A stretch of DNA of 64,000 bases from Acidobacteriota bacterium (GTDB lineage Bacteria > Acidobacteriota > Aminicenantia > Aminicenantales > Saccharicenantaceae): assembly GCA_028749205.1 (NCBI GenBank), contig JAQULR010000005.1:1-64000 (forward strand), read 5' to 3'. This document shows, in pieces, positions 35,813 to 52,040 of this stretch. The notes beneath the pieces are model-generated. The model made no database searches. It saw nothing but the letters and a program-made list of their open reading frames with translations, and was not told where the DNA came from. Within the stretch, counting starts at the first letter, position 1. Each line of letters starts with the position of its first letter. The position numbers and the translations under genes are program-made.

Positions 35813-36190
35813 ATGCCTGATAAAACCAAAATCCTGGTGATAGATGACGATCCGGCAATTTGTGTCTCAGTTAAAGCCATTCTGGAAGCCAGTGGCTATG
35901 AGGTGTTCACGGCTTTAAGCGGTAAAGAAGGGCTTGACCTTTTCCATCAGGTTGATCCAGATATTGTTCTGTGCGATATGATGATGGAAGATATAGATGC
36001 TGGGGCAAAAGTGGCCGGGGTTATCAAGAAAGAACAACCTGACCTGCCAGTTTTTTTGTTGAGCACTATCGGCGATGCCACTGCCCGAACTATTGGCCTT
36101 GACGATCTCGGTTTTAATGGAGTTTTTCAGAAGCCAGTTAATTTCGACTTGCTGCTGAGTGTAATTGAAAAGCACAGGAAAAAGTCCTGA
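35813..36190 (+). CDS. Single-domain response regulator (REC)
   Basis: ILVIDDDPAICVSVKAILEASGYEV...PDIVLCDMMMEDIDAG...FQKPVNFDLL. Confidence 0.9.
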   Translation: MPDKTKILVIDDDPAICVSVKAILEASGYEVFTALSGKEGLDLFHQVDPDIVLCDMMMEDIDAGAKVAGVIKKEQPDLPVFLLSTIGDATARTIGLDDLGFNGVFQKPVNFDLLLSVIEKHRKKS

Positions 36191-36219: not shown

Positions 36220-36732
36220 ATGAGCATTTCTCTGGCTGATCTTTACCGGCAAAATTCAGATCTGGAAACTTTTTGTCAGGAGGTTAGAAAACTGGGAGGT
36301 AATTTTGAGCTGGACGCTCGTCAGATGGAAGCCCTTGGTCAGGCTTATTTTGAAGTCCATCCAGAGAAATTTGTTAAAAGAGATCTGGATGAAGTCAGGC
36401 TAGGTTATCAACTGGCCAGATGCTGCTTGCTGGAAAAGGCCCTGGCCGGGCTGACAGAGACAGTTAAGGATTTTTTCAGGCGGGCTTTTGATCAGCCTGA
36501 ATCCATAGCCGGCCTCCTGGATGATTACAGGCGTTCGGAAAACCTGCCGCTTCTCGTATCTTCTTTTAATTGCCTTCAAGCTTCACTGGACGAACTGAAA
36601 GCAGCTATTGATGAATTGCCTAAGGGGATGATTAAAGAAAGGTTCCTGGGAGGAATTTCAACTCTCTATAACACCAGGTATCTTCTGAGCATTTTTATTT
36701 CGCGTCTTGGCTCAAACGGTTTACAAAATTAG
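36220..36732 (+). CDS. Hypothetical protein upstream of hydrogenase cluster
   Basis: 170-aa ORF, ATG start, sits between the REC gene and the fdhF-like gene on the same strand; no family recognised. Confidence 0.6.
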   Translation: MSISLADLYRQNSDLETFCQEVRKLGGNFELDARQMEALGQAYFEVHPEKFVKRDLDEVRLGYQLARCCLLEKALAGLTETVKDFFRRAFDQPESIAGLLDDYRRSENLPLLVSSFNCLQASLDELKAAIDELPKGMIKERFLGGISTLYNTRYLLSIFISRLGSNGLQN

Positions 36733-36807: not shown

Positions 36808-38826
36808 TTGCCCTATTTTAGAGGAGTATGTAACTTCTGCGGGACTGGTTGTGGCCACTTGCTGCGAGTAGAGGGGAACCGGGTAAGAGGTGTTTATCCC
36901 CTCTCTGGTCATCCGTTAAGTCGTGGTCGGTTGTGTGTCCGCGGCTGGCATATTCATGAGCTTCTTCAGACAGAAGATAGAATTTCTCAGCCGCTCATTA
37001 AAGACGGTAGCAGTTTCAAGCCTGTTTCTTATGAAGAAGCTCTTGATTATGTGGTGGAAAGGGTAAAAAAACTGCCTGGCCGTCAGGTGGCTGTTCTTGG
37101 TTCTCCTCGGTCCTCCAACGAAGAGAATTATCTGTTGGGTAAGTTTGCTAGGGCAATCCTCAAAACAAATAATCTAAGTCTGTCGTCTGATGCCGGCCAG
37201 GAAGAAAGTGCCAGGGTGCTTCTTGAAGGCTGTGGCTGGCCAGCCATGACCGGTACGCTGGCCGAATTGAGACAGGCTGATTTTATCTTAGTGGTGGGCG
37301 GCGACCTGACCAAGCAGAATCCAATTATCGCCAGCGAAATCCATCATGCCCATCGTGCCGGGACTTTTTTAGCAACCATTTCTCCCCGGAAAACTCAAAT
37401 GGCCAGGCTCAGCCAACTTCATCTTAGACCTAAACCGGGAACAATTTTTTACGTTCTCCAGGGTTTAGGCAGAGTTCTGGTTGAGGAGAAGGCTATTGAT
37501 GATGATTATTTATCGACATTTACAGCCAACAGCCAGACTTTCCTCGAAGAGTTGAAGCAGATCGAAGTTGAAAAGATAGTAGAGCTGACCGGTATAAGCA
37601 GAGAGCAAATGACTGAACTAGCCAGAAAATTGAAAGAATCTAATTCAGCTTGTGCCTTTTATCCAACGGGAGTGCAGAGTCTCGATCGCCGAACCATGGC
37701 TGCTCTCTTTAACCTTTTCCTTTTAGCGGGGAAAATTGGGCGGCGAGGAAGTGGGGTAAATCCGGTGACCGGCATCAGTAATCTGCTGGGCAGCTATGAC
37801 CTGGGCCTTTCTCCTGTTTTCCTGCCTGGTTATGCTTCAGTTGAAGACGAGCTGGCCTGGGAGAGATTGGAAAATTTCTGGCAGACGAAGCTAGATCGCT
37901 GGTCAGGTAAGAATGTCGATACCTGTTTGTCAGAAGGGGAAGATATCAAAGCTCTTTTTGTGGTTGATCATGATGAGGAAATTATCAGACATGTCAATCG
38001 GATAAGGCAGCTTGACTTAATAGTTTATTTTGGTGCTTATGAAAATCCATTTGCTTCTCTGGCTCAGGTTATTTTTCCCAGAACGAGCTACGTAGAAGAG
38101 GATGGAACTTATACTAATTCTGAGCGCCGGGTTCAGCTGGTTCTGAAAAGAATCGAGCCGCCGGCTGGGGTCCGCCCCTTATGGAAAACCCTGACTAACC
38201 TGGCTCGGGCTCTCGGGCATGACTGGAATTATGATTCAGTTGAAAACATCATGAGTGAGATAAGTCAGCTGGTTCCTTATTATCGTAGTCTGACTTATGA
38301 AAAACTTAAGGCCAGGCTTGGCTTGAAATGGCCAGCTGATGATCTTCATCCTGAAGGTACAGATTGCTTACTGGTAGAAGAAGCAAGCCGGCGCTTCCGA
38401 TTTGTTCAGGTAAATGGTCAGGAGAAAAAGCTGGCTGGTGAGCCCGAGGTTCAGAAAGATTTTCCTTTTAAATTAGTGGTGGGGCGGAGCAATTATTTCT
38501 GGCACCAGAATTCTGTCATGAAAAGGACTTTTATTCCCAAACGCGAATATAATGCTCTTCTCCTTCTCTACCCCAGAGGTTTTGTTGAAATTTCGAAAGA
38601 AGATGCCAGCCGTCTCGGCCTGAGAGAAAAACAAGTAGTGAGAATAGTGGCTGAATCGGCTGAGGTCAGGCTGGCAGCCAGAATCTCAGGCGATATTCTG
38701 CCCGGTATGCTTTACATACCTTATTTTATTGATGAGATGATTCCCGAATTTCTTCACCGGCAGGTAGCTGATTTAGAAAAGAACGAAGAGTTCTTTCTGC
38801 CGGTCAGATTGGAAAAGGTGGTTTAA
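36808..38826 (+). CDS. FdhF-like molybdopterin oxidoreductase-family protein lacking canonical formate dehydrogenase catalytic residues (TTG start)
   Basis: N-terminal [4Fe-4S] motif CNFCGTGCG...GRLCVRGW; GVNPVTGISNLLGSYDLGLSPVFLPGY; C-terminal molybdopterin-dinucleotide binding-like segment. Confidence 0.85.
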   Translation: MPYFRGVCNFCGTGCGHLLRVEGNRVRGVYPLSGHPLSRGRLCVRGWHIHELLQTEDRISQPLIKDGSSFKPVSYEEALDYVVERVKKLPGRQVAVLGSPRSSNEENYLLGKFARAILKTNNLSLSSDAGQEESARVLLEGCGWPAMTGTLAELRQADFILVVGGDLTKQNPIIASEIHHAHRAGTFLATISPRKTQMARLSQLHLRPKPGTIFYVLQGLGRVLVEEKAIDDDYLSTFTANSQTFLEELKQIEVEKIVELTGISREQMTELARKLKESNSACAFYPTGVQSLDRRTMAALFNLFLLAGKIGRRGSGVNPVTGISNLLGSYDLGLSPVFLPGYASVEDELAWERLENFWQTKLDRWSGKNVDTCLSEGEDIKALFVVDHDEEIIRHVNRIRQLDLIVYFGAYENPFASLAQVIFPRTSYVEEDGTYTNSERRVQLVLKRIEPPAGVRPLWKTLTNLARALGHDWNYDSVENIMSEISQLVPYYRSLTYEKLKARLGLKWPADDLHPEGTDCLLVEEASRRFRFVQVNGQEKKLAGEPEVQKDFPFKLVVGRSNYFWHQNSVMKRTFIPKREYNALLLLYPRGFVEISKEDASRLGLREKQVVRIVAESAEVRLAARISGDILPGMLYIPYFIDEMIPEFLHRQVADLEKNEEFFLPVRLEKVV

Positions 38827-38829
38827 GCA

Positions 38830-39897
38830 ATGTACTGGCTGACAAAAGAACAGTTGCCACTGCTGGTTCAAAAACTGGCTGAAGAATATAAAATCTTTGG
38901 TCCCCGCCATGACCGCGTTTCGGGTGAGGTGATCTTTGACCATCTACCCGATCTATCCGAGCTGGATCTGCAAGCGGCCATTCCTTATAATCCGCCCAAG
39001 TTCATTCTTTTCCCCCACTATGAAGAGATCCTTAAATACCGCTACCAACCAGAAACAAAAAAAGTCAGAATTGAACAGCTCAATCTCCTGGAACCGAAGG
39101 CTTTGATCGGTTTGAGATCCTGTGACCTGACTGGTTTGCTCTGTCTTGACCGCTTTTTCCTCGATCAGGAATATGTAGATGAATTTTATTTAGCTCACCG
39201 AAAAAAGTTGTTTATCGTTTCCAATACCTGCATCAGGCCATTTCCACAGTGTTTCTGCGTCTGTACGGACAGTGGCCCGGCAGCCAGGGAAGGCTTCGAT
39301 CTTGATCTGACTTTTACCGGCCGCGATTACCTGGTTGAAGCTGGTTCGAAGAAAGGGCAGGCTTTGGTCGAAGAGCTAAATCTGGTCGAGGCTGATTCTG
39401 AGTCTTTAAACCTCAAAAAGCAGATAATAGACGATTCGGTCTCCTCTTTTGACCGCTTTGCTCTGGAAAACAAAGCCTGGATTTCGCGGGCAACCAATCG
39501 GTTGACCACCGGCTTTATCAAGCCTGAGGTCTGGGAATATATCGGGAATCAGTGTTTTGAATGTGGAGCTTGCTCTTTTGTTTGTCCTACCTGCTCCTGT
39601 TTTAATATTGAGGATGCTAATCTGGCCAGCGGTGAAACCAGCCGGCTGAGGACCTGGGACTCCTGTTCTTTTGAAGGTTATACCAAAATGGCCGGAGATC
39701 ATAATCCAAGAAAACCGGTTGAAGATCGTCGTAACAAAAGGTTCTTTTGCAAATTATCTTATTCCCAATCAAAAAAATATCTGAGACCTGGCTGTGTTGG
39801 CTGCGGTCGTTGTGCCAGGGTCTGTCCTGGCGATATAGGTTTGCCCAATGTCGTCACTTACATCAGGCGTGAAATCACTGGAGAATCTGGAGAATAA
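38830..39897 (+). CDS. 4Fe-4S dicluster protein, sulfhydrogenase beta-subunit (HydB)-like
   Basis: FECGACSFVCPTCSCFNI and CVGCGRCARVCPGDIGLP cluster motifs with SH-beta-like N-terminus. Confidence 0.83.
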   Translation: MYWLTKEQLPLLVQKLAEEYKIFGPRHDRVSGEVIFDHLPDLSELDLQAAIPYNPPKFILFPHYEEILKYRYQPETKKVRIEQLNLLEPKALIGLRSCDLTGLLCLDRFFLDQEYVDEFYLAHRKKLFIVSNTCIRPFPQCFCVCTDSGPAAREGFDLDLTFTGRDYLVEAGSKKGQALVEELNLVEADSESLNLKKQIIDDSVSSFDRFALENKAWISRATNRLTTGFIKPEVWEYIGNQCFECGACSFVCPTCSCFNIEDANLASGETSRLRTWDSCSFEGYTKMAGDHNPRKPVEDRRNKRFFCKLSYSQSKKYLRPGCVGCGRCARVCPGDIGLPNVVTYIRREITGESGE

Positions 39898-39902
39898 AAG
39901 CT

Positions 39903-40742
39903 ATGGTTAAAAATTTAGTGCCTATAGTCTCTATTCCAGAAGTTGCTACTATCGTTGATATCCGGGATGAAATTGAAGAGGTCAAAAGCTTTTATTTTAC
40001 TCTGGACCGGCCGGAAATCGAGGAAGCTTTTAAGATTCGCTCCGGCCAATTTATAATGTGCACCGTCTTTAGAGCAGGCGAATTTGCCGTTTCTTTGCCT
40101 TTCAGTCCGGAGAATGACCGCAAGCATATTTCGGTAAGGAAGGTGGGGAAAGTTACAGCTGCTTTGCATCAGCTTGAACCAGGCGACAAAATCGGAGTCA
40201 GAGGTCCCTTTGGCAATGGCTTTCCTTTTGAAGAAATAAAGGGAAGCAATATCATCTATGTAGCCGGTGGGATCGGCCTTATCCCACTTCGCTCGTCAAT
40301 TGTTCATGTCCTCCAGCACCGGCAGGATTTCGGTCGGGTAATTCTGGTTTACGGGGCCAAAAGCTCAAAAGAACTGATGTACAAAGAAAGCATAAGAGAA
40401 TGGCAGGCCACAGAAAACTTTGAGACCCACTTTACGATCGACCGACCCGAACCGGGTTGGTCCGGAGAAGTTGGTTTTGTCAACCACCTGACAGCTAAAC
40501 TTGATTTGCCGGTCTCCAACACAGTGGCCTTTGTTTGTGGCCCGCCGGTTATGTTTAATGCTGTGATTAAAGAACTCAAGCTAAAGGGAATAAAAGAACA
40601 AAACATTTATTCAACTCTGGAAAGGCATATGAAATGTGGGATTGGCAAGTGCCAGCATTGCGCTATAGGACGGACACTGGTCTGTGTGGATGGGCCTGTT
40701 TATACTTATAAACAGATTAGAACCCTGGGAGAACAAATTTAA
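39903..40742 (+). CDS. FAD/NAD(P)-binding, 2Fe-2S oxidoreductase, sulfhydrogenase gamma-subunit (HydG)-like
   Basis: VGKVTAALHQLEPGDKIGVRGPFGNGF, YVAGGIGLIPLRS, VAFVCGPPVMF, ERHMKCGIGKCQHCAIG. Confidence 0.88.
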   Translation: MVKNLVPIVSIPEVATIVDIRDEIEEVKSFYFTLDRPEIEEAFKIRSGQFIMCTVFRAGEFAVSLPFSPENDRKHISVRKVGKVTAALHQLEPGDKIGVRGPFGNGFPFEEIKGSNIIYVAGGIGLIPLRSSIVHVLQHRQDFGRVILVYGAKSSKELMYKESIREWQATENFETHFTIDRPEPGWSGEVGFVNHLTAKLDLPVSNTVAFVCGPPVMFNAVIKELKLKGIKEQNIYSTLERHMKCGIGKCQHCAIGRTLVCVDGPVYTYKQIRTLGEQI

Positions 40743-40743
40743 G

Positions 40744-41283
40744 ATGGAAGCCCTTGACCTTCTCCGGCAAGTGTTGAGTCAGAAAACCTGTTTGGTTGGG
40801 ATTGGCAACCAATTGCGAGGTGATGATGGCTTCGGGCCTTACTTTATTGAATCGTTGAGGTGCCAAGATTTAATTCCGGGAATTAATTTGATGACAGTAG
40901 AAGACGTCCCTGAGAATTTTGCTTTCCCAATTTCAAAAAAAGATTTAGACAACGTGGTCTTTGTCGACGCGGTCATTCTGAATGCTCCGGCCGGCACAGT
41001 TATCTTTGGCCCGCTGGATGAATTTGAAGAAATCGGGCAAATTGCTTCTACTCATAAATTATCGCTCAGACTGACAGCCCGAGTGCTCGAGGAAAGTGGG
41101 AAAAAAGTCTTCCTCCTTGGGGTAGTTCCTAAAACTATGGAATTTGGACAAAAATTGTCTCCTGAGATTAAGGAAATTGCCGAAGAATTGATTACCATTA
41201 TTGAGCAACAGCTAAATGACAGCCCTTATCAAAAAGAACATATCTCTTCAGATAAAGCAGAACGGGAAAGGGAGAAAGGCTGA
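40744..41283 (+). CDS. Hydrogenase maturation protease (HycI/HoxW-type)
   Basis: LVGIGNQLRGDDGFGPYFIESL; VVFVDAV; THKLSLRL; start placed at internal MEALDLL. Confidence 0.87.
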   Translation: MEALDLLRQVLSQKTCLVGIGNQLRGDDGFGPYFIESLRCQDLIPGINLMTVEDVPENFAFPISKKDLDNVVFVDAVILNAPAGTVIFGPLDEFEEIGQIASTHKLSLRLTARVLEESGKKVFLLGVVPKTMEFGQKLSPEIKEIAEELITIIEQQLNDSPYQKEHISSDKAEREREKG

Positions 41284-43181
41284 TGACTATCCTGTCAGGT
41301 TTCTGGCTCTTCTGGCTGAGTTTGCTTCTGGCTTCCTTCCTGGCGCTAATCTTAAAGAAAAAAACCAACTATCTTCGCTCCGCCGGGACTTTATTGCTCT
41401 GTCTGAGTTGCTTGATACTGATCTTAATCTCTCTATCCATCCTCGGGAAAGGAGGCTCTCCCCTCGAATTCGAGGTTAAAGTCGGAAGTTTTCATCTGCC
41501 ATTTTTAATTGATGGTCTGTCGGCGCTCTTTCTCCTGCTTCTTTCTGTTTTAACTTTAGCTTCAGTCATTTTTTCGCTGGATTTTGTCAAAAAATATAAA
41601 GGTGACGAGTTCTGGAAATATTATCTGATATTGCCTCTGTTTATTGGTGGCCTAGCCGGACTGCTGACCGTTGATGACCTCGGACCGGGCTTTACCCTGG
41701 CCTGGCAGTTAATGGTTATCTCTTCTTATCTTTTAATCAGATGGGGAAGGCCGACTAAAGTTTCAGCCCGACCGGCTTTAGTCTATCTCCTTTTTATGGA
41801 AGCCGCCTGGCTGATGATTACTGGTTCTGCTTTCCTGGCCAAAGGTTATATTTTTGGTGATTCGCTGGGTACTGTTGGCTTGAAGCTGGCTCAAAGTGGC
41901 CCCTGGCAGGCTATTTTATTTTTTAGCCTCCTCTTTCTCGGCTTTGGTATTAAAACGGGGGTTTTCCCTTTTGGACAATGGTGGATACCTGATGCCTATT
42001 CGACTGCCTGGCCTCAGGTTTCTTCTCTTCTGGCCGGTCTTCTGGAAAAGACTGGCGTTTTCGGGTTGATTCGAATCTTTTTCTTTGTGGCTAAAAGCTC
42101 AGGCGCAGCTTTTAATCCTGATCTCTGGGGAAAGGTGCTGGTGGTAGCTGGAGTAATAACGCTTTTTATTGGGACTGTTCAGGCTATCAAACAGAGTGAC
42201 TATCTCCGCCTTCTGGCTTATAGCTCGATCGGACAGGTTGGCTACATAATTTTTGCTCTGGGGAGTAGCCTGCTGGCCTGGAATAGCTCCTTACCTCTGG
42301 CAAAATCTCTAGCCTCAGTTATTTTTATTGCTGCTGTTTATCATAGCCTTAACCATGGTATTTTTAAGGGTCTTCTTTTTCTACTGGGAGGAAACCTCCT
42401 TTATGCCACCGGCACGCGTGACTTGAATCGCCTGGGTGGACTGCTATCTGTTATGCCAGTCAGTGGCTTTCTGGCGGCTATTGCTTCTTATTCTATCTCC
42501 GGTATGCCAGCTTCCAGCGGTTTTGTCAGTAAATGGTTAATGATTTCCTCTAATTTTCTGGCCGGCCGGGACAGCTTGCTTTTGACCCTTTCTGGCATTG
42601 TAGCTCTTTTCACAGCTGCTTTTACCTTAGCCTGCTATGTCAAATTTTTTGGCCTGGCTTTTACTTCTGCTGGTGCCAGCTGGAAACTGAAAAGAAGCAT
42701 TAAGGAAGTCCCCTGGAAGTTGCTGGCTTCTGAAATCTTCCTGACCGTCATTTGCTTAAGCCAGGCTTTTCTTCCAATGGGCTATGTTAAGCTGATTGAC
42801 CGCAGCCTTGGACTTTCTTCTGGCTTCCTTTTGTCAGAAGCTGGTGGGGATTTACTGAGTGGAAAGATGTTCAGTTTAAAAATTCATGACGGCCAAAGCC
42901 TCCTGGCGGCCACTTCCCCGCTTTTAATGCTGTTTCTCATTGTTTTATTGGCTTTCCTGGCCTATTGGTTTAGCCGGTCGGCACATCCAGCCGAGACCAA
43001 AGTTCCTGCCTGGCTTTGCGGATACCAGGATTTAAACTTGAACAATGTTTATGCTGACCGTCATGTCTTCTCTGATTTAAAGAAATTTTTCTGGTGGACG
43101 GGCGGCTCGCCTAAAAAAGTTATTGACGATAATGACCCGACTGTTTTGCCTGATAGCCAGCCAAAAGGTGAAGTAGAATGA
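41283..43181 (+). CDS. Membrane antiporter-like subunit of group-4 hydrogenase (HycC/HyfB-like, NuoL/ND5 family)
   Basis: Many TM helices; LLAYSSIGQVGYIIFALG, YHSLNHGIFKGLLFLLGGNLL, ISGMPASSGFVSKWLM. Confidence 0.88.
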   Translation: MTILSGFWLFWLSLLLASFLALILKKKTNYLRSAGTLLLCLSCLILILISLSILGKGGSPLEFEVKVGSFHLPFLIDGLSALFLLLLSVLTLASVIFSLDFVKKYKGDEFWKYYLILPLFIGGLAGLLTVDDLGPGFTLAWQLMVISSYLLIRWGRPTKVSARPALVYLLFMEAAWLMITGSAFLAKGYIFGDSLGTVGLKLAQSGPWQAILFFSLLFLGFGIKTGVFPFGQWWIPDAYSTAWPQVSSLLAGLLEKTGVFGLIRIFFFVAKSSGAAFNPDLWGKVLVVAGVITLFIGTVQAIKQSDYLRLLAYSSIGQVGYIIFALGSSLLAWNSSLPLAKSLASVIFIAAVYHSLNHGIFKGLLFLLGGNLLYATGTRDLNRLGGLLSVMPVSGFLAAIASYSISGMPASSGFVSKWLMISSNFLAGRDSLLLTLSGIVALFTAAFTLACYVKFFGLAFTSAGASWKLKRSIKEVPWKLLASEIFLTVICLSQAFLPMGYVKLIDRSLGLSSGFLLSEAGGDLLSGKMFSLKIHDGQSLLAATSPLLMLFLIVLLAFLAYWFSRSAHPAETKVPAWLCGYQDLNLNNVYADRHVFSDLKKFFWWTGGSPKKVIDDNDPTVLPDSQPKGEVE

Positions 43182-44869
43182 GCAGAAAAGAAGAATTACT
43201 GAACCTGCTTAAGGATAAATTGAGAGGAAAGTTTCTGGCCGGGAGCAGTCTGGAAGATAAGCGTCTGTTTATTGATATAAAAAAAGAAGCACTGGTCGAA
43301 ACAGCCAGTCTCCTGATGAAAGAGGGCGCCCGCTATCAAATGGGCGTTGGCTATGAGGCCAAGAAGAATGGCCAGGGTCTGGCCATGGTTCACACCTTTG
43401 CCTTTGATGCTGATTCTCTGCTGGTGGCTATCAGGGCTTTAACAACAGAAGATAAGCCAGAATTTGATTCGCTCACCCCTTTCATTCCTGGTGCTGGCTG
43501 GTCAGAGCGTGAATATATTGACCTTCTCGGGCTTCATTTTAAAAATCATCCGAATCCCAAACGCCTGGTACTGTCTGATGACTGGCCGGAGGGAATTTAT
43601 CCTCTTCGCCAGGATGTCCCTTATGACCTGATGCCCCCCTCGGCCGAAGAGGTAGCTTTCCGGCTCGACGAGGCTCCGCCTGGCAGTTCTATCATTCCCT
43701 TTGGACCTTTTCATGCCTGTCTGCATGAGCCTGCTCATTTTGCTGTTTATGTAGATGGGGAGGAAATCAAGGGCTGTGAATACAGAGGTTTTATGGTTCA
43801 TCGGGGCATTGAAAAATTAGCCGCGACCGAGCTTACCTATAATGAAATACCTTTTGTAGCTGAACGAATTTGTGGGATTTGCGGCTCAGTGCATTCGGTC
43901 AATTATGCTCAGGCTGTCGAGGCAGCTTCTGGCCTTAAAATTCCACGGCGAGCTGAGTTTATCAGAACAATTATGCTGGAAATAGAGAGGCTTCATTCCC
44001 ACCTGATGTGGTTGGGAGTGGCCGGCCACCTCATCGGCTTTGATACTGTTTTTATGCAGGCCTGGAGAATAAGGGAGAAAATAATGTGGCTGGCCGAAAG
44101 TCTGACCGGCAATAGGAAAACTTATGGAATGGTCATCGTCGGGGGTGTAAGACGGGATATCGATCTGACCAAAGCTGACCTGATTAAGAAAACCCTGTCC
44201 GAAGTTGAAAAAGATATGCTGGCTCTGGAAAAGGCCATTATCAAAGATAAAGCTATCCACAGAAGAACTAAAGGTGTTGGCTATCTCTCCAGAGAAAAGG
44301 CGGTGGAGTGGAATCTGGTAGGACCGGTGGCCAGAGCCCGGGGGCTGGATATGGATGCGAGGAGAGACCACCGCTATGCTGCTTATGATGAGGTGAAGTT
44401 TGATGTTGTGGTGGCTGATTCCGGTGATGTCTGGGGAACACTGGTCGTCAGGATTAAAGAGATTTATGAGGCCATAAAGATTATCCATCAGTGCCTGGGA
44501 AAACTGGCTTCGGAGCTCCAGGGTTCTCCCCTTGCTATTGAGATAGAAGGACCGGTTCCAGCTGGTCAACAGGGATTGTCGGTAGTGGAGGCGCCGCGGG
44601 GAGAAGCTGTCCACTATGTCCTTACCGGTGATGATAACCGTCCAGAACGCTGGCGGGTGCGAGCGCCAACTTATCCCAACCTCCAGGCCGTACCTGATAT
44701 GTTGCTCAATAACAAGCTGGCTGATTTTCCCATTATAGTTGGCTCAATTGATCCCTGCATATCCTGCACTGACCGGGTAGCGGTTATAGATAGAAAAACA
44801 GCTGCTGACAGAATTTTAAGCCGACAGGAGCTGGAAAAACTGTCCAGAGAGGTGAGGTCTAAGACATGA
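43178..44869 (+). CDS. Group-4 [NiFe]-hydrogenase large subunit, HycE/HyfG-like (NuoC-NuoD fusion)
   Basis: NuoC-like N-terminus; Ni ligands RICGICGSVHSVNYAQAVE and SIDPCISCTDR. Confidence 0.92.
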   Translation: MSRKEELLNLLKDKLRGKFLAGSSLEDKRLFIDIKKEALVETASLLMKEGARYQMGVGYEAKKNGQGLAMVHTFAFDADSLLVAIRALTTEDKPEFDSLTPFIPGAGWSEREYIDLLGLHFKNHPNPKRLVLSDDWPEGIYPLRQDVPYDLMPPSAEEVAFRLDEAPPGSSIIPFGPFHACLHEPAHFAVYVDGEEIKGCEYRGFMVHRGIEKLAATELTYNEIPFVAERICGICGSVHSVNYAQAVEAASGLKIPRRAEFIRTIMLEIERLHSHLMWLGVAGHLIGFDTVFMQAWRIREKIMWLAESLTGNRKTYGMVIVGGVRRDIDLTKADLIKKTLSEVEKDMLALEKAIIKDKAIHRRTKGVGYLSREKAVEWNLVGPVARARGLDMDARRDHRYAAYDEVKFDVVVADSGDVWGTLVVRIKEIYEAIKIIHQCLGKLASELQGSPLAIEIEGPVPAGQQGLSVVEAPRGEAVHYVLTGDDNRPERWRVRAPTYPNLQAVPDMLLNNKLADFPIIVGSIDPCISCTDRVAVIDRKTAADRILSRQELEKLSREVRSKT

Positions 44870-45765
44870 AGGTGGTGGCTGTCTTCGTCAATTTAATCTA
44901 TTTTCTCCTGCTGGCCCCTTTTCTGGAGGGGGTGATGAGAAAGCTAACGGCCTGGATTCAATCGAGGAAAGGCCCACCGCTCTATCAGCCTTATCTTGAT
45001 CTTCTGAAACTTTTAGGCAAGGAAAATTTAAACTCAGGTGGGAACTGGGCTTTTCGACTGGCGCCTATTCTGTCTTTTAGCTCAATGCTGGCAGCTATCG
45101 CCCTTATCCCTCTGACCGGTCAGGCTAATATTTTAGCTCATTCATCAGACTTAATGACTCTGATTTATTTTTTGACCCTGAGCGGTTTTTGTCTGCTGGT
45201 TGGGGCTTTAGGCAGTGGGAATCCCTTTGCGGCGGTGGGGGCCAGCCGGGAAATGATGACAACGGTTATGCTCGAACCGGTTCTGGCTATGCTCTTGATT
45301 CTGGGTACAGTCAGAATCGGTAACTTCTCTTTGAGTGCTGCCGTCTCGGGCGTGGCGGTCAGCAGAGGTGGTTCCTATTTTCTGATGCTGGTTGTTTATC
45401 TTCTGGCTCTTCAGGCTTTTGCCGCCAGACAGCCTTTTGATATCGCTGAAGCTGAGGTTGAAATTCTGGAAGGACCCTATATGGAATATAGCGGGCCGAA
45501 TTATGCTCTACTCCGTTATACTTTAAATCTTAAGAGAATGTTTTATGCCTGGCTTCTTGTCTCTTGCTTTTTAAGTTTTATTCTGCCAGCCAATTTTCTT
45601 TTTAGTCTGCTGTTGCAGACTGTGCTGATTATCGTGGTCTTTGTTTTAATTTCGCTTATCGGAGCGACTCATCCACGTTTCAGAATAGACCAGGCCTTAA
45701 AATATTATGCTTTGCTTTTAATTTTAGCCCTGATAGCGGTTGGTTTGGCGGTTAAGGGCTGGTGA
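44866..45765 (+). CDS. Membrane subunit HycD/HyfC-like (NuoH family)
   Basis: FLEGVMRKLTAWIQSRKGPPLYQPYLDLLKLLGKE; ARQPFDIAEAEVEILEGPYMEYSGPNYALL. Confidence 0.9.
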   Translation: MKVVAVFVNLIYFLLLAPFLEGVMRKLTAWIQSRKGPPLYQPYLDLLKLLGKENLNSGGNWAFRLAPILSFSSMLAAIALIPLTGQANILAHSSDLMTLIYFLTLSGFCLLVGALGSGNPFAAVGASREMMTTVMLEPVLAMLLILGTVRIGNFSLSAAVSGVAVSRGGSYFLMLVVYLLALQAFAARQPFDIAEAEVEILEGPYMEYSGPNYALLRYTLNLKRMFYAWLLVSCFLSFILPANFLFSLLLQTVLIIVVFVLISLIGATHPRFRIDQALKYYALLLILALIAVGLAVKGW

Positions 45766-45786
45766 TGATGAAAGGCGGGGTTTAAG

Positions 45787-46350
45787 ATGTGGCTCTGGAA
45801 TAAAATCAAACAACTGACCATTCCTTCCAGGACAGGGGTCGTTACTCTGCGTTATCCTTATAAGCCCAGGCCGGCTCCCGCCGGTTTCCGCGGCCAGCCT
45901 GTCTGGGATCACACCAAATGCATTGGTTGTGCCGGCTGTGCCAGCAACTGCCCGGCCAGAACCATTTTCCTCCGGGATATCTGTCAGGAAATAAGGATTC
46001 TAATTTATGATTCATCTCGCTGCACTTATTGCGGTAGATGTGCTGACCTCTGTCCGGAAAAAGCCATCACCATGAGCGAGAATTTTGAACTGGCCACCGA
46101 TAATCGCCAGGATATAACTCAGACCATAGAGCTGTTTATGATGACCTGTCAACGCTGTGGCCGCTGCTACGACCTGGAAATAAAGAATGCCCTTGATAAG
46201 CTGCAAATGCTTGGCTACCGTTATGATAGCCTGGAGGTCAGAAAAGTCATAGGGCAGTCAACGCCTGAATTTGAACCCGAGCATTTAGAGAAAACAGCTA
46301 CTTATCGCCGTCCCGAAAAACTGGAGAAGTCGTCATGTGGAAAAGACTAA
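45787..46350 (+). CDS. 2[4Fe-4S] ferredoxin-like subunit HycF/HyfH-like
   Basis: KCIGCAGCASNCPARTI, RCTYCGRCADLCPEKAI, extra MTCQRCGRCYD pair. Confidence 0.9.
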   Translation: MWLWNKIKQLTIPSRTGVVTLRYPYKPRPAPAGFRGQPVWDHTKCIGCAGCASNCPARTIFLRDICQEIRILIYDSSRCTYCGRCADLCPEKAITMSENFELATDNRQDITQTIELFMMTCQRCGRCYDLEIKNALDKLQMLGYRYDSLEVRKVIGQSTPEFEPEHLEKTATYRRPEKLEKSSCGKD

Positions 46351-46895
46351 CAGAGAAGGCTTTTCGCCGCTCAGTCTGGGTTTATCATTGCAACAGCGGA
46401 GCCTGCAATGGTTGTGATATAGAAATCCTGAATGTTTTAACGCCTTATTATGATGTGGAGAGATTCGGCATCAGGTTAGTTGCCTCTCCCCGTCATGCCG
46501 ATGCCATTCTTCTCTCGGGGGCGGTGACCAGACCAACGCTGCCTCTGGTTAAGAAAGCCTATCAGGCAGTGCCAGCCCCGAAGCTGGTCTTTGCCGTCGG
46601 TTCCTGTGCCATCGGGGGAGGATGCTGGTATGACACCTATAACGTGACTGGTGGTGGGGATAAAGCCATCCCGGTCAATTATTTTATTCCGGGCTGTCCG
46701 CCCCGGCCGGAAGCCATCATCTTCGGGATAGCTCTGGCTCTGGGCCTGGTTGACAAGAAAGTGGCACCGGTTGAGCTCAAGCAGATGGAGTTCCCGGTTG
46801 ATATGTACCGGCAAGCAAAAATTCTGGAAAGCAACCGGGTAATATATAAACTTCTGGGCGAGGAAGATGACCGCCTTCTATCCGGGAGGAAATGA
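46335..46895 (+). CDS. Group-4 [NiFe]-hydrogenase small subunit, HycG/HyfI-like (NuoB family)
   Basis: CNSGACNGCDIEILNVLTPYYDVERFGIRLVASPRHADAILLSGAVTRP; VGSCAIGGGCW; PGCPPRPEAI. Confidence 0.92.
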   Translation: MWKRLTEKAFRRSVWVYHCNSGACNGCDIEILNVLTPYYDVERFGIRLVASPRHADAILLSGAVTRPTLPLVKKAYQAVPAPKLVFAVGSCAIGGGCWYDTYNVTGGGDKAIPVNYFIPGCPPRPEAIIFGIALALGLVDKKVAPVELKQMEFPVDMYRQAKILESNRVIYKLLGEEDDRLLSGRK

Positions 46896-47302
46896 CTATG
46901 GCCAGAATTCTATTGGTTGATGACGACCGTGACCTGACCGACAGCTTAAGTCAGATCTTGCGTCTTAAAGGCTATGAGGTGGTTGTAGCTTATAACGGGG
47001 CAGAAGGATTAAAGAAACTACTGGAAACGAAACCGGATCTAGTCATTATGGATGTTATGATGGAAACAGACACGGCTGGCTTTGAAGCTATTTATAAAAT
47101 CAGAAGTGAACGTCCTGATTCTAAATTCAGAGACTTTAAGGATATTCCCATTATTATCCTGACCGCTATTGACCAGGTGACCAACTCCCGCTTTTCTCTT
47201 GACCAGGAAGAAAGCTTTCTCCCAGGACATAATGAGTTTCTGACCAAGCCAGTGGATATAGATGAGTTTTTACAGAAAATTGAATCCTGTCTAAAAAAAT
47301 GA
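46892..47302 (+). CDS. Single-domain response regulator (REC), overlaps hydrogenase small-subunit stop
   Basis: ILLVDDDRDLTDSLSQILRLKGYEV...PDLVIMDVMMETDTAG...FLTKPVDIDEF; ATGA overlap. Confidence 0.9.
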   Translation: MTMARILLVDDDRDLTDSLSQILRLKGYEVVVAYNGAEGLKKLLETKPDLVIMDVMMETDTAGFEAIYKIRSERPDSKFRDFKDIPIIILTAIDQVTNSRFSLDQEESFLPGHNEFLTKPVDIDEFLQKIESCLKK

Positions 47303-47311
47303 CTTAAGAGC

Positions 47312-49261
47312 ATGAAATTCCAGGGAATTCTTACCAAACTGAACAGATTAGGGTCAAGTCTGAGGTTTAAGCTGATTTTTGGATTTTTAACCATCGTTTT
47401 TTTAATGGGAGCTTTATCTACCTATTTAGGAATAAGTTCAATAAACAGAAATGTTATCAGGGAAGCCTATGATAATGTCAGAAACAGTTTGCGGGCTATC
47501 AGCGATCTTTACCGTGAAGAAATTGAAAAAAGAGCCAATATCATAGAGTATCTTTCTAGAACTTCGGAAATAGTTGGGGCTACTGCTTCAGAAAACCGGG
47601 AATACCTTTACGAAAAGCTGGTCCAGATAAAAGAGGAATTTCAGTTTGATATTGTCAATGTGGTCAAGCCGGATGGTACTATCCTGGTTAGAGCCAATAA
47701 TTATGAGGCTTATGGTGACAGTATTGCTCATTACAAGTACATCGAATGGGTTTTGAGAAACCAGCAACCTGCAGCCGGGACTGGAATACTTGGTTATGAG
47801 AATATAAAAAATGAGGGGCCAGACCTGGCTGAGAGAACAGTAATGAAAATCATTCCGACTCCAAAAGCTAGGGCCCCGCGACTGGAGCCGAAAATAGAAG
47901 ACAGGGCTTTGGTCTTGAAGACAGTATCGCCAATTTTCCAGGATAACCTTCTGGTGGGTATCCTTTATGCGGCGGTTCTGCTTAACAACAATGATCACTT
48001 TGTAGAAAGATTCAAAAGGTTGATTTTTAAAGAAGAAAAGATAAAAGGAAAAGATGTCGGAACCGTTACCATATTCCTGGACGATATTCGGGTTGCCACT
48101 AATGTGGTTGATCAGAGCGGCAGGAGGGCGGTGGGCACTCTGATTTCAGAAGAAGTCTATAAACAAGTTTATGAACAGGGAATGGACTGGCTGGGAAGGG
48201 CTTTTGTAGTCAGCGATTATTATCTTTCTGGATATACCAGGATAACTGATATAGATAACCAGCCGATAGGTATGCTCTATGTAGGAATATTAGAAGCCAA
48301 GTTTAGCCAGATCCTTCGCCAGACTACCCTGCTGTATTTTCTTTTAATTTTTTTGATGACTGCAGTGGCCATCTATATTTCCACCTATTTAGTCAATCTT
48401 TATACCAGGCCTATGAGCCGGATGATTAAGGCCACAGCTGACATTGCTCAGGGAAATTATCATTTACTGACGATTTCTCCCGATGAAAGCGAAGAAATTA
48501 AAGAATTAGAAGAGAATTTTAATTCCATGGTTACTGCTATAGAAGAAAGAGACAGAAAATTGAAGGAGTTAACCGAAAAGACCATTCTCCGTTCAGAGAA
48601 ATTAGCCTCAATTGGGAGGTTAGCTTCTGGTATTGCTCATGAAATCAACAATCCGCTGACGGGAATTCTGGCTTACAGCAGCGTGCTTGAGGAGGAGTTA
48701 AAAGGATCTCCTTATGAACAAGACCTGAAGATAATTAAAGAAGAAACTTTGCGCTGCCGTAAAATAGTGAGAAATCTGCTTGATTTTGCCAGAGATTATA
48801 AACCTGAGAGAACTTATTCTAATCTGAATTCTCTGATTGAGGAAGCCATCCAGCTTTTAGAAAAACACGTCAAATTTCACAATATCAAGATAATAAAGAA
48901 TCTGGACCCAAAACTGCCTGAGATAAAAGTTGATGCCGATGAGTTTCGTTCGGTGATCAATACTTTGGCCGATAATGCTGCTGATGCCATGCCTAATGGC
49001 GGCCAATTAATCATTTCAACAAGCTTTGATTTTGATAACCAACAGGTTATAATCAGGATAGCTGATACAGGAATAGGCATAAGCGAAGAAAATCTGGAAC
49101 GGATATTCGAACCTTTCTTTACCACCAAGGAAAAAGGGAAAGGAACAGGTCTTGGCCTCTCCATGACTTATGGAGTGATTAAGAGACATAATGGAACGAT
49201 TGAGGTAAAAAGCCGAGTTAACGAAGGGACAGAATTTATAATAAAGTTGCCGGTAGAATAA
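47312..49261 (+). CDS. Membrane sensor histidine kinase (Cache-like extracellular sensor, HAMP, HisKA, HATPase)
   Basis: TM helices flanking a periplasmic region; LASGIAHEINNPLTGILAYSSVLEEEL; NTLADNAADAMPNGG; GTGLGLSMTYGVIKRHNG. Confidence 0.9.
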   Translation: MKFQGILTKLNRLGSSLRFKLIFGFLTIVFLMGALSTYLGISSINRNVIREAYDNVRNSLRAISDLYREEIEKRANIIEYLSRTSEIVGATASENREYLYEKLVQIKEEFQFDIVNVVKPDGTILVRANNYEAYGDSIAHYKYIEWVLRNQQPAAGTGILGYENIKNEGPDLAERTVMKIIPTPKARAPRLEPKIEDRALVLKTVSPIFQDNLLVGILYAAVLLNNNDHFVERFKRLIFKEEKIKGKDVGTVTIFLDDIRVATNVVDQSGRRAVGTLISEEVYKQVYEQGMDWLGRAFVVSDYYLSGYTRITDIDNQPIGMLYVGILEAKFSQILRQTTLLYFLLIFLMTAVAIYISTYLVNLYTRPMSRMIKATADIAQGNYHLLTISPDESEEIKELEENFNSMVTAIEERDRKLKELTEKTILRSEKLASIGRLASGIAHEINNPLTGILAYSSVLEEELKGSPYEQDLKIIKEETLRCRKIVRNLLDFARDYKPERTYSNLNSLIEEAIQLLEKHVKFHNIKIIKNLDPKLPEIKVDADEFRSVINTLADNAADAMPNGGQLIISTSFDFDNQQVIIRIADTGIGISEENLERIFEPFFTTKEKGKGTGLGLSMTYGVIKRHNGTIEVKSRVNEGTEFIIKLPVE

Positions 49262-49284
49262 AATCCGGGCATAGGGAGAAAAAA

Positions 49285-50349
49285 ATGAGCAAACCTAGAA
49301 TCTTATTTATCGATGATGAAGAAATTGTCCTGCGTAGCTGTCAGCGGATATTTGCCTCTTCAGATTATGAGATAGACACCGCATCTTCTGGCGAAGAAGG
49401 ACTCAGCAAGGCGATTAATCAAGATTTTGATATTGTTGTTACAGATTTAAAGATGCCTGGAGTTGGAGGGATGGAGGTGCTTTCCAGGTTGAGAAAGGTC
49501 AGGCCTGATACTACGGTGATCATTTTCACCGGTTATGCCAGTGTTGACACTGCCCGTGAGGCTCTGAAAAATGGTGCTTTCGATTATATTCCAAAGCCAT
49601 TTACTCCCGACGAAATGAGGGAAGTTATCAAGAATGCTTTAGAAGCCAGAGCTGGCCAACAGCGTAATATGCTGGATTTGATGGCCATTGTTTCCCATGA
49701 ATTAAAAAGCCCCCTGTCATCTCTTCATACCACTGCTTCTACCCTTTATAAGGGTTATTTTGGCAAGCTGTCGCCAGATCAGATGAAAATTCTGGAGTCC
49801 ATCATTCGCAACTGCGAATATCTTGAAGATATTATCCGCAACTATTTAGACCTGTCCAAGATGGAACTTGAGCAGCTGGGTGCCTTTATGGAGGAGATAG
49901 ATTTCATCAAAGATGTGGTTGAAGAAATACTCAATCTGCCAGAAGTTGCTGATAGTGGGAAGAAGATAAAAATTGCCTTAGATGATAAGACTGAGGTTAA
50001 AATCAAAGGTGATCCAAGATTGTTAAAAATCCTGGTCAGGAACTTAATCAATAATGCTATTAAATATGGCTATGAAGGTACAGAAATTAAACTTTGTTTA
50101 GAAAAGAAAGATCGGGAGATGATCTTTTCTGTCTATAATGAAGGTGTTGGGATAAAACCGGAAGATGGTCAGCGCCTTTTTCGCAAGTTTGAGAGGTTAA
50201 AACAGCCAGGAACAGAAGGAGTTAAAGGCTCTGGCCTTGGCCTTTACATCTGTAAAAAAATTGTAGAAAGTCACAAAGGAAGAATCTGGTTTGAATCAGA
50301 ACCAGGGAAATGGGTAACCTTCTATGTCGCCTTGCCCGTAGCCAACTGA
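49285..50349 (+). CDS. Hybrid REC-HisKA-HATPase signalling protein
   Basis: ILFIDDEEIVLRSCQRIFASSDYEIDTASSGEEGL...MAIVSHELKSPLSSLHTT...GSGLGLYICKKIVESHKGRIWFES. Confidence 0.9.
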   Translation: MSKPRILFIDDEEIVLRSCQRIFASSDYEIDTASSGEEGLSKAINQDFDIVVTDLKMPGVGGMEVLSRLRKVRPDTTVIIFTGYASVDTAREALKNGAFDYIPKPFTPDEMREVIKNALEARAGQQRNMLDLMAIVSHELKSPLSSLHTTASTLYKGYFGKLSPDQMKILESIIRNCEYLEDIIRNYLDLSKMELEQLGAFMEEIDFIKDVVEEILNLPEVADSGKKIKIALDDKTEVKIKGDPRLLKILVRNLINNAIKYGYEGTEIKLCLEKKDREMIFSVYNEGVGIKPEDGQRLFRKFERLKQPGTEGVKGSGLGLYICKKIVESHKGRIWFESEPGKWVTFYVALPVAN

Positions 50350-50395: not shown

Positions 50396-50425
50396 TTGAC
50401 AATAGTAGAGGCTCTCTCCTATAAT
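50396..50425 (+). promoter_or_regulatory. Sigma70-type promoter of tmRNA
   Basis: TTGACA (50396-50401), N18, TATAAT (50420-50425), about 10 nt before the tmRNA 5' end. Confidence 0.8.
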
Positions 50426-50434
50426 CTAAATGTC

Positions 50435-50786
50435 GGGGGCGAAATGGACTCGACGGAGGTAGTGAAGCAGAAGCTGCAGGCCGAGGTCCCATCAACCTCG
50501 TTAAACAGGTGGAAAAAAATTAACTGCAGAACCTGTTGCAGTCGCTGCCTGATAGAAAGTGCAGCCGTCTCTCCAAGCCTTTCCTGCGGGTTTGCGGAGA
50601 CGCCGATTAGCAGGATAGTCCAGTGAGGCAGCTCAAGACTCGCTGGATGAAGTTTTTCTTGGGCTGGTTGAGTGGTTCTTTTCCTCTTCGAGAACTGCTC
50701 GGCGAGAGCCAATGAAGAGGATAAGCCTGTAGAGGCTGGCTGTGGAATACCTTCGGACGCGGGTTCGATTCCCGCCGCCTCCACCA
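50435..50786 (+). ncRNA. ssrA: tmRNA (ssrA)
   Basis: 5' GGGGGCGAAATGGACTCGACGG and 3' TTCGGACGCGGGTTCGATTCCCGCCGCCTCCACCA pair as a tRNA-like domain; internal ORF GCA GAA CCT GTT GCA GTC GCT GCC TGA TAG. Confidence 0.96.
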
Positions 50787-50822
50787 AATTTTTTTTATTT
50801 TTATTATGATGAAAAAAAAGAA

Positions 50823-52040
50823 ATGCTAAAATCAACTAAAGCCTTGAGCTTTTTTGTCATCCTAGTAGGATTTACTTACTGGCAACTTGGGAGTCCGATC
50901 CTGGCCCAAGAGACGAAAAAAGCTGAGCCGGCGGTTATGGTTGAGCTGAGAGATGTTCAAGGAGGAACTCGCCTTAAAATCAGTGCCGATACCAATCTGA
51001 TTTACAGCCTGAAAAAAGAAGGCAACACCCTAATAATTTCCATCAAGACCCCAAGCGGATTAAAAATAGAGAAGAAACCTTTTTCCAGTCAGTTTATCAC
51101 CTCGGTAGATCTGGCTAAGTCTCCTGAGTCTTATTTCCTGATGGTCAAAGCCCGGACCGACAATTTTGATTTTTCTCAGTCAGCCAGGTGGAATCCGCTG
51201 GTTTTAACAATAGAGCTCAAGCTGAGGGAAGCCAAGCCGACGCCAGTCATGATGAAATCTGACCGACTGTCAGAAAAGCCAGCTGACAAGCCCGCTTCAG
51301 TTGAGAAAACCACTATAGAAAAAAATTCTATTCAAACTGAGGTTGCCAGAAGGCGGATTAAAACTATAGTTATTGACCCCGGTCATGGCGGCAATGAGAG
51401 CGGTGCTAAGGGAATCTACGGGACGCTGGAAAAGGATATAACCTTAAATATTTCTAAAAAACTCAAAGAGACCATAGAGCGGGGACTTAAATACCGGGTG
51501 GTTATGACCAGGGATGCTGATGTTGTTGTTCCCTTAGAAAGAAGGGCAGCAATTGCCAACAATAACAAAGCGGATTTATTTATCAGCATCCATATTAATG
51601 GTTCACGCCGGGTAAATGCCAGAGGTTCAGAGACTTTCTTTTTGAACCTTAATGCCACCGATGAGGAAGCCAGGCGGTTAGCTTATTTTGAAAATAACTC
51701 GGAAGAACTTGGTGGCCAAGTGCCTGAATCCGATTTTGATGACCTAAAATTAATCCTCTGGGATATGGCTCAATCAGCCTACTTGAAACAAAGCAGTCAA
51801 CTGGCAGAGTTTGTTCAGCTCGAACTCAATGAATTGCTGCGAACCCAGAACAGAGGAATTAAGCAGGCTCCATTTAAAGTCCTGACCGGGGTGGCCTGCC
51901 CAGCTATTCTGGTTGAGGTGGCCTTTATTACCAACCCGGAAGAAGAAAAAATATTGTCCTCAGAGGATTTCCAGGCCAGAGTTGCTGAGGCTATCTACCG
52001 GGCTTTAAATAGGTTTTTGCAGCTTTATGAAAGACCATGA
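50823..52040 (+). CDS. N-acetylmuramoyl-L-alanine amidase (Amidase_3, AMIN-like N-terminus)
   Basis: IKTIVIDPGHGGNESGAKGIYGTLEKDITLNISKKL; DLFISIHINGSRRVNARGSETFFL; VACPAILVEVAFITNPEEE. Confidence 0.94.
   Translation: MLKSTKALSFFVILVGFTYWQLGSPILAQETKKAEPAVMVELRDVQGGTRLKISADTNLIYSLKKEGNTLIISIKTPSGLKIEKKPFSSQFITSVDLAKSPESYFLMVKARTDNFDFSQSARWNPLVLTIELKLREAKPTPVMMKSDRLSEKPADKPASVEKTTIEKNSIQTEVARRRIKTIVIDPGHGGNESGAKGIYGTLEKDITLNISKKLKETIERGLKYRVVMTRDADVVVPLERRAAIANNNKADLFISIHINGSRRVNARGSETFFLNLNATDEEARRLAYFENNSEELGGQVPESDFDDLKLILWDMAQSAYLKQSSQLAEFVQLELNELLRTQNRGIKQAPFKVLTGVACPAILVEVAFITNPEEEKILSSEDFQARVAEAIYRALNRFLQLYERP

Follow-up and report, generated by a model that had tools for sequence, protein, structure and literature searches.

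Does a protein built like the formate dehydrogenase FdhF of E. coli still act on formate when it heads a [NiFe]-hydrogenase operon and the catalytic residues appear to have been replaced? The gene that raises this question lies in the window, meaning here the whole 64,000-nucleotide stretch that was analysed, which comes from a Candidatus Saccharicenans-like genome (Aminicenantia, Acidobacteriota). We coined the name FdhL for its product in the present analysis.

The operon and its relatives

FdhL is the first gene of an operon at 36808-46895 that ends with a HycG-like gene, and two-component regulator genes lie on both flanks. The order is FdhL, beta, gamma, maturation protease, HycC-like, HycE-like, HycD-like, HycF-like and HycG-like.

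35813-36190, + strand: response-regulator receiver protein, conserved upstream neighbour (synteny)
36220-36732, + strand: conserved 170-aa protein that precedes FdhL in nearly all Aminicenantales copies (synteny); zero Pfam or NCBIfam matches
36808-38826, + strand: FdhL, FdhF-like pseudo-formate dehydrogenase, 672 aa; TTG start; one N-terminal [4Fe-4S] motif kept
38830-39897, + strand: beta subunit, sulfhydrogenase ShyB/HydB- or AsrA-like, double [4Fe-4S]; NCBIfam ShyB 158 bits, AsrA 151, HydB 147 (below equivalog cut-offs); Fer4_22 99.9 bits
39903-40742, + strand: gamma subunit, ShyC/HydG/AsrB-like, FAD- and NAD(P)-binding; NCBIfam PRK08345 237 bits, ShyC 196, AsrB 188; Pfam NAD_binding_1 and DHODB_Fe-S_bind
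40684-41283, + strand: HycI/HyaD-type hydrogenase maturation protease; TIGR00072 102 bits, over cut-off; PF01750
41283-43181, + strand: HycC/HyfB-like antiporter-type membrane subunit; PF00361; HycC 26%
43178-44869, + strand: [NiFe]-hydrogenase large subunit, HycE-like with NuoC-like N-terminal domain; HycE 38% over 565 aa, 394 bits
44866-45765, + strand: HycD/NuoH-like membrane subunit; PF00146; HycD 30%
45787-46350, + strand: HycF/HyfH-like double [4Fe-4S] protein; HycF 32%
46335-46895, + strand: HycG/NuoB-like hydrogenase small subunit; PF01058; HycG 48%
46892-50349, + strand: response regulator, histidine kinase and receiver/histidine-kinase protein, conserved downstream neighbours (synteny)

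The true start of the protease gene is probably the ATG at 40744, and the two-component genes at 35813-36190 and 46892-50349 are probably regulatory. A minus-strand ORF at 50419-50835 is spurious, antisense to the tmRNA gene at 50435-50786.

The large subunit keeps both NiFe CxxC motifs (CGICGSVH at 232 and DPCISCTDR at 527), and with the membrane subunits and the HycF/HycG-type relay this identifies a group 4 [NiFe] hydrogenase. Its best match in E. coli is HycE, and HycC, HycD, HycF and HycG also have counterparts in the operon; this comparison covered E. coli HycE and NuoCD only and does not assign a HydDB subgroup (4a, 4b, 4f or 4g). In HydDB the role of groups 4f and 4g is given as undetermined, with 4f putatively formate-coupled (PMC5037454). 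A second group-4-type cluster is found at L114 2667-12048 (G000:C19, approximately 70.7-80.0 kb). It encodes three subunits of the antiporter type and has its NuoC- and NuoD-like parts on separate genes, and no electron-input module was recognised in it. Most of the order carries related large subunits, and this cluster is possibly ferredoxin-linked.

Orthologues of FdhL were found in 16 of the 19 genomes of the genus, the window's own counted, and in further genera and families. The first-pass annotation had proposed a search for homologues beside group-4 hydrogenases, and the same operon type indeed surrounds FdhL in relatives: the genes keep their order in each of the ten Aminicenantales copies that are more distant (FdhL identity 44-50%), and the same kind of operon is present in other families (G113, G287, G430 and G491). 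An orthologous hydrogenase large subunit was detected in 25 of 60 genomes, every one of which also carries FdhL. The sole carrier without the large subunit, G017, lacks it because its assembly has nothing of the stretch that starts midway through the gene for the antiporter-type subunit and runs to the histidine-kinase genes. At that locus (L025 14393-17270) the operon is cut inside the HycC-like gene and joined to the region downstream of the histidine-kinase genes, which is either a deletion or an assembly error.

Active-site residues across the FdhL family

FdhL was aligned to FdhF taken from the E. coli K-12 genome sequence, and this alignment exactly reproduced the register that had earlier been set by eye. 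The Sec/Cys140 position is Gly130 (codon 37195-37197, + strand), His141 is Gln131 (37198-37200, + strand) and Arg333 is Thr321 (37768-37770, + strand), and there is no TGA codon within the frame. The claim that all three catalytic positions are substituted is therefore correct for the window protein; for the family it stands at 140 and 333 but not uniformly at 141. When 27 FdhL sequences were aligned with 16 true formate dehydrogenases, taken from this phylum and from E. coli, the residue at position 140 was G (22), W (3), T or H in FdhL and C/U in 16/16 true enzymes, while position 141 was variable (Q, H, L, Y), with His in 7 of 27. Two FdhL sequences added later brought the total to 29, which span several Acidobacteriota families. 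Across these 29, position 140 is G, W, T, H or Y and never C/U, and position 333 is T, A, P or V and never the R of all 16 true enzymes. Lys44 of FdhF, which we take to lie between the [4Fe-4S] cluster and the metal site, is Arg in every one of the 29 with a readable column and K in 16/16 true enzymes. Judged from these columns, the diagnostic losses of the family are those at 140, 333 and 44, not 141. The outlying members read T/H (G113), H/R (G287), Y/R (G430, a fragmented copy) and G/H (G491) at 140/141, and T, A, T and A, respectively, at 333. Of 150 positions near-invariant in true formate dehydrogenases, 55 were lost and 62 kept in FdhL.

The N-terminal CxxCxxxC...C motif for one [4Fe-4S] cluster is intact (C8, C11, C15 and C43), and its flanks are invariant in the family. 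The first-pass annotation had considered that a Cys or Sec from elsewhere in the protein might serve the metal site, and none was found: the four cluster ligands are the sole invariant Cys of the family, so a replacement thiolate is not evident. The C-terminal molybdopterin-binding domain is also retained, as had been noted (Pfam Molybdop_Fe4S4 42 bits, Molybdopterin 117 bits, Molydop_binding 36 bits). The best PDB relatives of FdhL are formate dehydrogenases (9t1s_L with 341 bits, 7qv7_S and 1aa6_A). An AlphaFold2 model from 15 sequences was of moderate quality (pLDDT 65, pTM 0.52), and its best PDB matches were again formate dehydrogenases, FdhF among them; at this quality the model confirms the fold only, not the pocket geometry.

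In the phylogeny FdhL forms a single clade (support 100/99) apart from ten intact formate dehydrogenases, a result most simply explained by a single loss in an ancestor. In a tree with NuoG and NapA, in which branches are long, it is again its own clade. FdhL evolves under purifying selection, with dN/dS of 0.09-0.10 between close relatives, which is within the range of its operon neighbours. The loss of the catalytic residues is an old and conserved trait. A scan of genome contigs with FdhL returned close relatives only, and in plasmid sequences, the set covered beyond Acidobacteriota, the homologues are ordinary formate dehydrogenases of approximately 30% identity.

Against TIGR01591, FdhL scores 423 bits; as the cut-off is 666 bits, it would not pass as an equivalog under strict rules. 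The expectation that homology annotation would say formate dehydrogenase therefore holds for loose annotation (or formate hydrogenlyase) only. Compared with formate dehydrogenases, FdhL keeps the fold and the [4Fe-4S] motif and lacks the catalytic residues, the TIGR01591 score and the FdhD/MobA partners described below. The drawn parallel to NuoG is apt as a parallel, not as membership, since FdhL reaches only 133 bits against the NuoG model TIGR01973 (cut-off 470) and starts directly at the Molybdop_Fe4S4 domain. Two MopB proteins of approximately 855 aa (G053:C154 and G059:C82; L054 and L055) also have no Cys/Sec-His at the formate dehydrogenase active-site positions; in a tree with long branches they group with the NuoG-like protein that G000 encodes.

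Cofactor and formate-handling genes

FdhD is the sulfurtransferase required by formate dehydrogenases. It was detected in none of 60 related genomes, while 8 of 14 control genomes were positive. MobA follows other molybdoenzymes rather than FdhL. Another MopB protein of catalytic type (counted at PF00384 of about 180 bits or more; in G016 the gene is incomplete and lies at the end of a contig) is encoded by 14 of the 26 FdhL carriers, and each of the 14 also has MobA (69-123 bits). The other 12 have no such protein and MobA was found in none of them (at most 28.7 bits), ten of the 12 being at least 90% complete; the genomes are related, hence no formal probability is attached to this tally. 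MobA is absent from most of the genus, with 24 bits at best in G000. In G016, G017 and G019 it adjoins the other molybdoenzyme, a Dms/Psr-like one, and not FdhL. MobA or FdhD could be too diverged for detection or missing from drafts, yet MobA of sister species scores 103-114 bits. In G040 a gene resembling mobA lies beside the operon, which raised the idea that FdhL uses MGD; this was set aside because MobA elsewhere adjoins the Dms/Psr-like enzyme.

MoaA and MoaC were found in G000 and in most genomes of the genus, and G000:C56 holds a cluster of MoaA, MoaC, MoeA-like and transporter genes, so a pterin cofactor as such is made in the genus, presumably for other enzymes. The absence of MoaA/MoaC from G019, G034, G046 and G056 was dropped as an argument against a pterin in FdhL because these genomes carry other molybdopterin enzymes. 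One of them, G034, has a true formate dehydrogenase (L049 9816-12530 and 12587-13702) with intact catalytic residues, beside a NuoF-like gene and a MobB-MobA fusion; MoaA, MoaC and FdhD were all undetected in G034 despite this enzyme. Transporters of the FocA family were found in none of 30 genomes, and no match to PFL was over cut-off.

The first-pass annotation had suggested that formate chemistry was lost and that the protein serves as a relay or scaffold. The conserved loss, the purifying selection, the co-occurrence with the large subunit and the lack of FdhD, and of MobA across most of the genus, all support the former, and we consider FdhL very unlikely to oxidise formate; the relay or scaffold part we infer.

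The putative NAD(P)H module and the proposed place of FdhL

The genes at 38830-40742, absent from the first-pass annotation, make up a sulfhydrogenase-type module. The gamma subunit has FAD, NAD(P) and [2Fe-2S] domains, the last as a C-terminal CGIGKCQHC...C motif, and the beta subunit has the double [4Fe-4S] domain; matches of both to the sulfhydrogenase and Asr models are below equivalog cut-offs. In E. coli formate hydrogenlyase, FdhF contacts HycB and HycF, and the four clusters of HycB lie between (PMC9474812). The FdhL operon has no HycB homologue, and the NAD(P)H module is the likely electron source and HycB replacement. We are fairly confident that the complex is NAD(P)H-linked.

In the path we propose, electrons would enter (or leave) as NADH or NADPH at the FAD of the gamma subunit and pass through its [2Fe-2S] cluster to the [4Fe-4S] clusters of beta, and then through the HycF/HycG-type clusters to the [NiFe] site. 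Beta would take the place of HycB, and FdhL would form the bridge from beta to the Hyc-type core; its role would be that of a structural adapter and probably of an electron relay with one cluster. H2 turnover would be coupled to ion transport by the HycC/HycD-type membrane subunits. As a whole, we regard it as probable that a dead formate dehydrogenase is kept as an adapter, and perhaps relay, in a membrane-bound, ion-translocating, NAD(P)H-linked [NiFe] hydrogenase; that FdhL itself is the connector or relay is our best guess, held somewhat less firmly. Beta could also dock directly on HycF; electrons would then bypass FdhL, as they bypass cluster N7 in complex I.

A possible origin is indicated by G432 (L129 1585-5512), where an intact formate dehydrogenase (C, H, R and K kept) lies between gamma and beta genes and no hydrogenase genes were matched in the 16 kb covered, which means that formate dehydrogenase-beta-gamma units exist. 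Such a unit is a plausible ancestor of the FdhL complex, and the L129 enzyme is possibly an NAD(P)-linked formate dehydrogenase with sulfhydrogenase-type partners.

Four other explanations were weighed. The one with most in its favour, though still unlikely, is an electron-confurcating complex in which NAD(P)H and reduced ferredoxin together feed H2 formation and FdhL is the ferredoxin port. The single [4Fe-4S] motif with invariant flanks would suit such a port, and Thermococcus Fdh3A, an isolated formate dehydrogenase catalytic subunit, can exchange electrons with ferredoxin (PMC8965080), but the operon has one flavoprotein only, with no HydB/NuoF-like or second-flavin subunit, and the second group-4 cluster of the genome, which lacks an input module, could serve ferredoxin instead. 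Less probable again is a Mo/W-bisPGD enzyme that acts on another substrate and whose metal is not bound by any residue of the protein. Within the molybdoenzyme superfamily, an enzyme that has lost only the Cys/Sec can remain active, as arsenite oxidase has no Cys/Sec ligand to its metal, and the retained fold and C-terminal molybdopterin-binding domain, together with MoaA/MoaC in many FdhL carriers, are compatible with this. However, Arg333, Lys44 and many other formate dehydrogenase-invariant positions were lost as well, position 140 tolerates residues as different as G, W, T, H and Y, and neither FdhD (0/60) nor, in carriers without another catalytic MopB protein, MobA (0/12, ten of them at least 90% complete) was found.

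That FdhL is a decaying, functionless relic carried along by the operon is very improbable. Its sequence has diverged more rapidly than those of the beta, gamma and small subunits, and G017 has FdhL without hydrogenase genes, but its dN/dS of approximately 0.09 is similar to that of the large subunit, no internal stop occurs among the FdhL copies listed, and the blocks WHIHEL and FWHQN..REYNALLLLYP are near-invariant. We give as little credence to a genuine formate hydrogenlyase, for which the Hyc-type core and the FdhF homologue speak, as does the naming of an Aminicenantes group 4 hydrogenase as a formate hydrogenlyase complex in one metagenome paper (PMC5459899). A formate hydrogenlyase needs an active formate dehydrogenase linked through HycB, whereas here the catalytic residues are lost family-wide and HycB, FdhD, a FocA-family transporter and PFL over cut-off were all missing from the searches above. 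The preferred reading remains an inactivated adapter between an NAD(P)H module and a Hyc-type hydrogenase.

Known systems each share a part of this arrangement. E. coli formate hydrogenlyase (FdhF-HycBCDEFG, group 4a) has homologues of HycC, D, E, F and G and of FdhL, but an intact FdhF, a HycB and no beta/gamma module. The group 3b sulfhydrogenase (Pyrococcus HydBGDA/ShyBCDA) and AsrAB share the beta and gamma subunits, which there serve a soluble group-3 hydrogenase or AsrC and here join a membrane group-4 core and a formate dehydrogenase-like subunit. NuoG (Nqo3, NDUFS1) of complex I likewise descends from Mo-bisPGD enzymes, lost the metal function and kept the [4Fe-4S] site (N7 in NuoG), whereas FdhL is far closer to formate dehydrogenase (423 vs 133 bits), has no N-terminal ferredoxin-like domains and forms its own clade. 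StnC of the Sporomusa Stn transhydrogenase also contains a catalytically inactive FdhF-like domain in a redox complex, but there the domain is fused to NuoG-like and GltD-like parts in one polypeptide, and the complex is soluble and bifurcating (PMC10482914).

The closest description is of the Saganbacteria RX5A cluster, called enigmatic in 2019. It combines a group 4 hydrogenase with asrA, asrB and cooF, and with a molybdopterin protein that HMMs assign to formate dehydrogenase but phylogeny could not, and hydrogenase relatives occur in Zixibacteria and Omnitrophica (PMC6349859). The group 4 hydrogenase, asrA, asrB and the formate dehydrogenase-like protein are shared with the FdhL operon, while cooF and Mrp-like subunits are additional (PMC6349859); the comparison is by description, with active-site residues unreported in the part of the paper available. 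The RX5A cluster may be the same kind of system. No description of active-site loss in this operon was found in the literature searched, which excluded subscription journals and preprints, and the loss in FdhL appears to be undescribed.

We see about even chances that the FdhL operon represents an overlooked class of energy-converting NAD(P)H:H+ oxidoreductases in Acidobacteriota and possibly other uncultured phyla, in which a group-3b-type module and a Hyc-type ion-pumping hydrogenase were joined through a once-inactivated formate dehydrogenase connector, independently re-enacting the history of NuoG. The structure paper on E. coli formate hydrogenlyase raised a complex I ancestor of this type and argued that FdhF and NDUFS1 joined independently (PMC9474812). 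If our reading is true, nature would offer a parallel to complex I in a Hyc-type hydrogenase that has an inactive FdhF-like subunit and is linked to pyridine nucleotides, and with a second, independent inactivated formate dehydrogenase kept in place, it could be asked why such a subunit is retained. Metagenome clusters filed as formate hydrogenlyase in these anaerobes would then use no formate, and their predicted hydrogen and formate metabolism would change.
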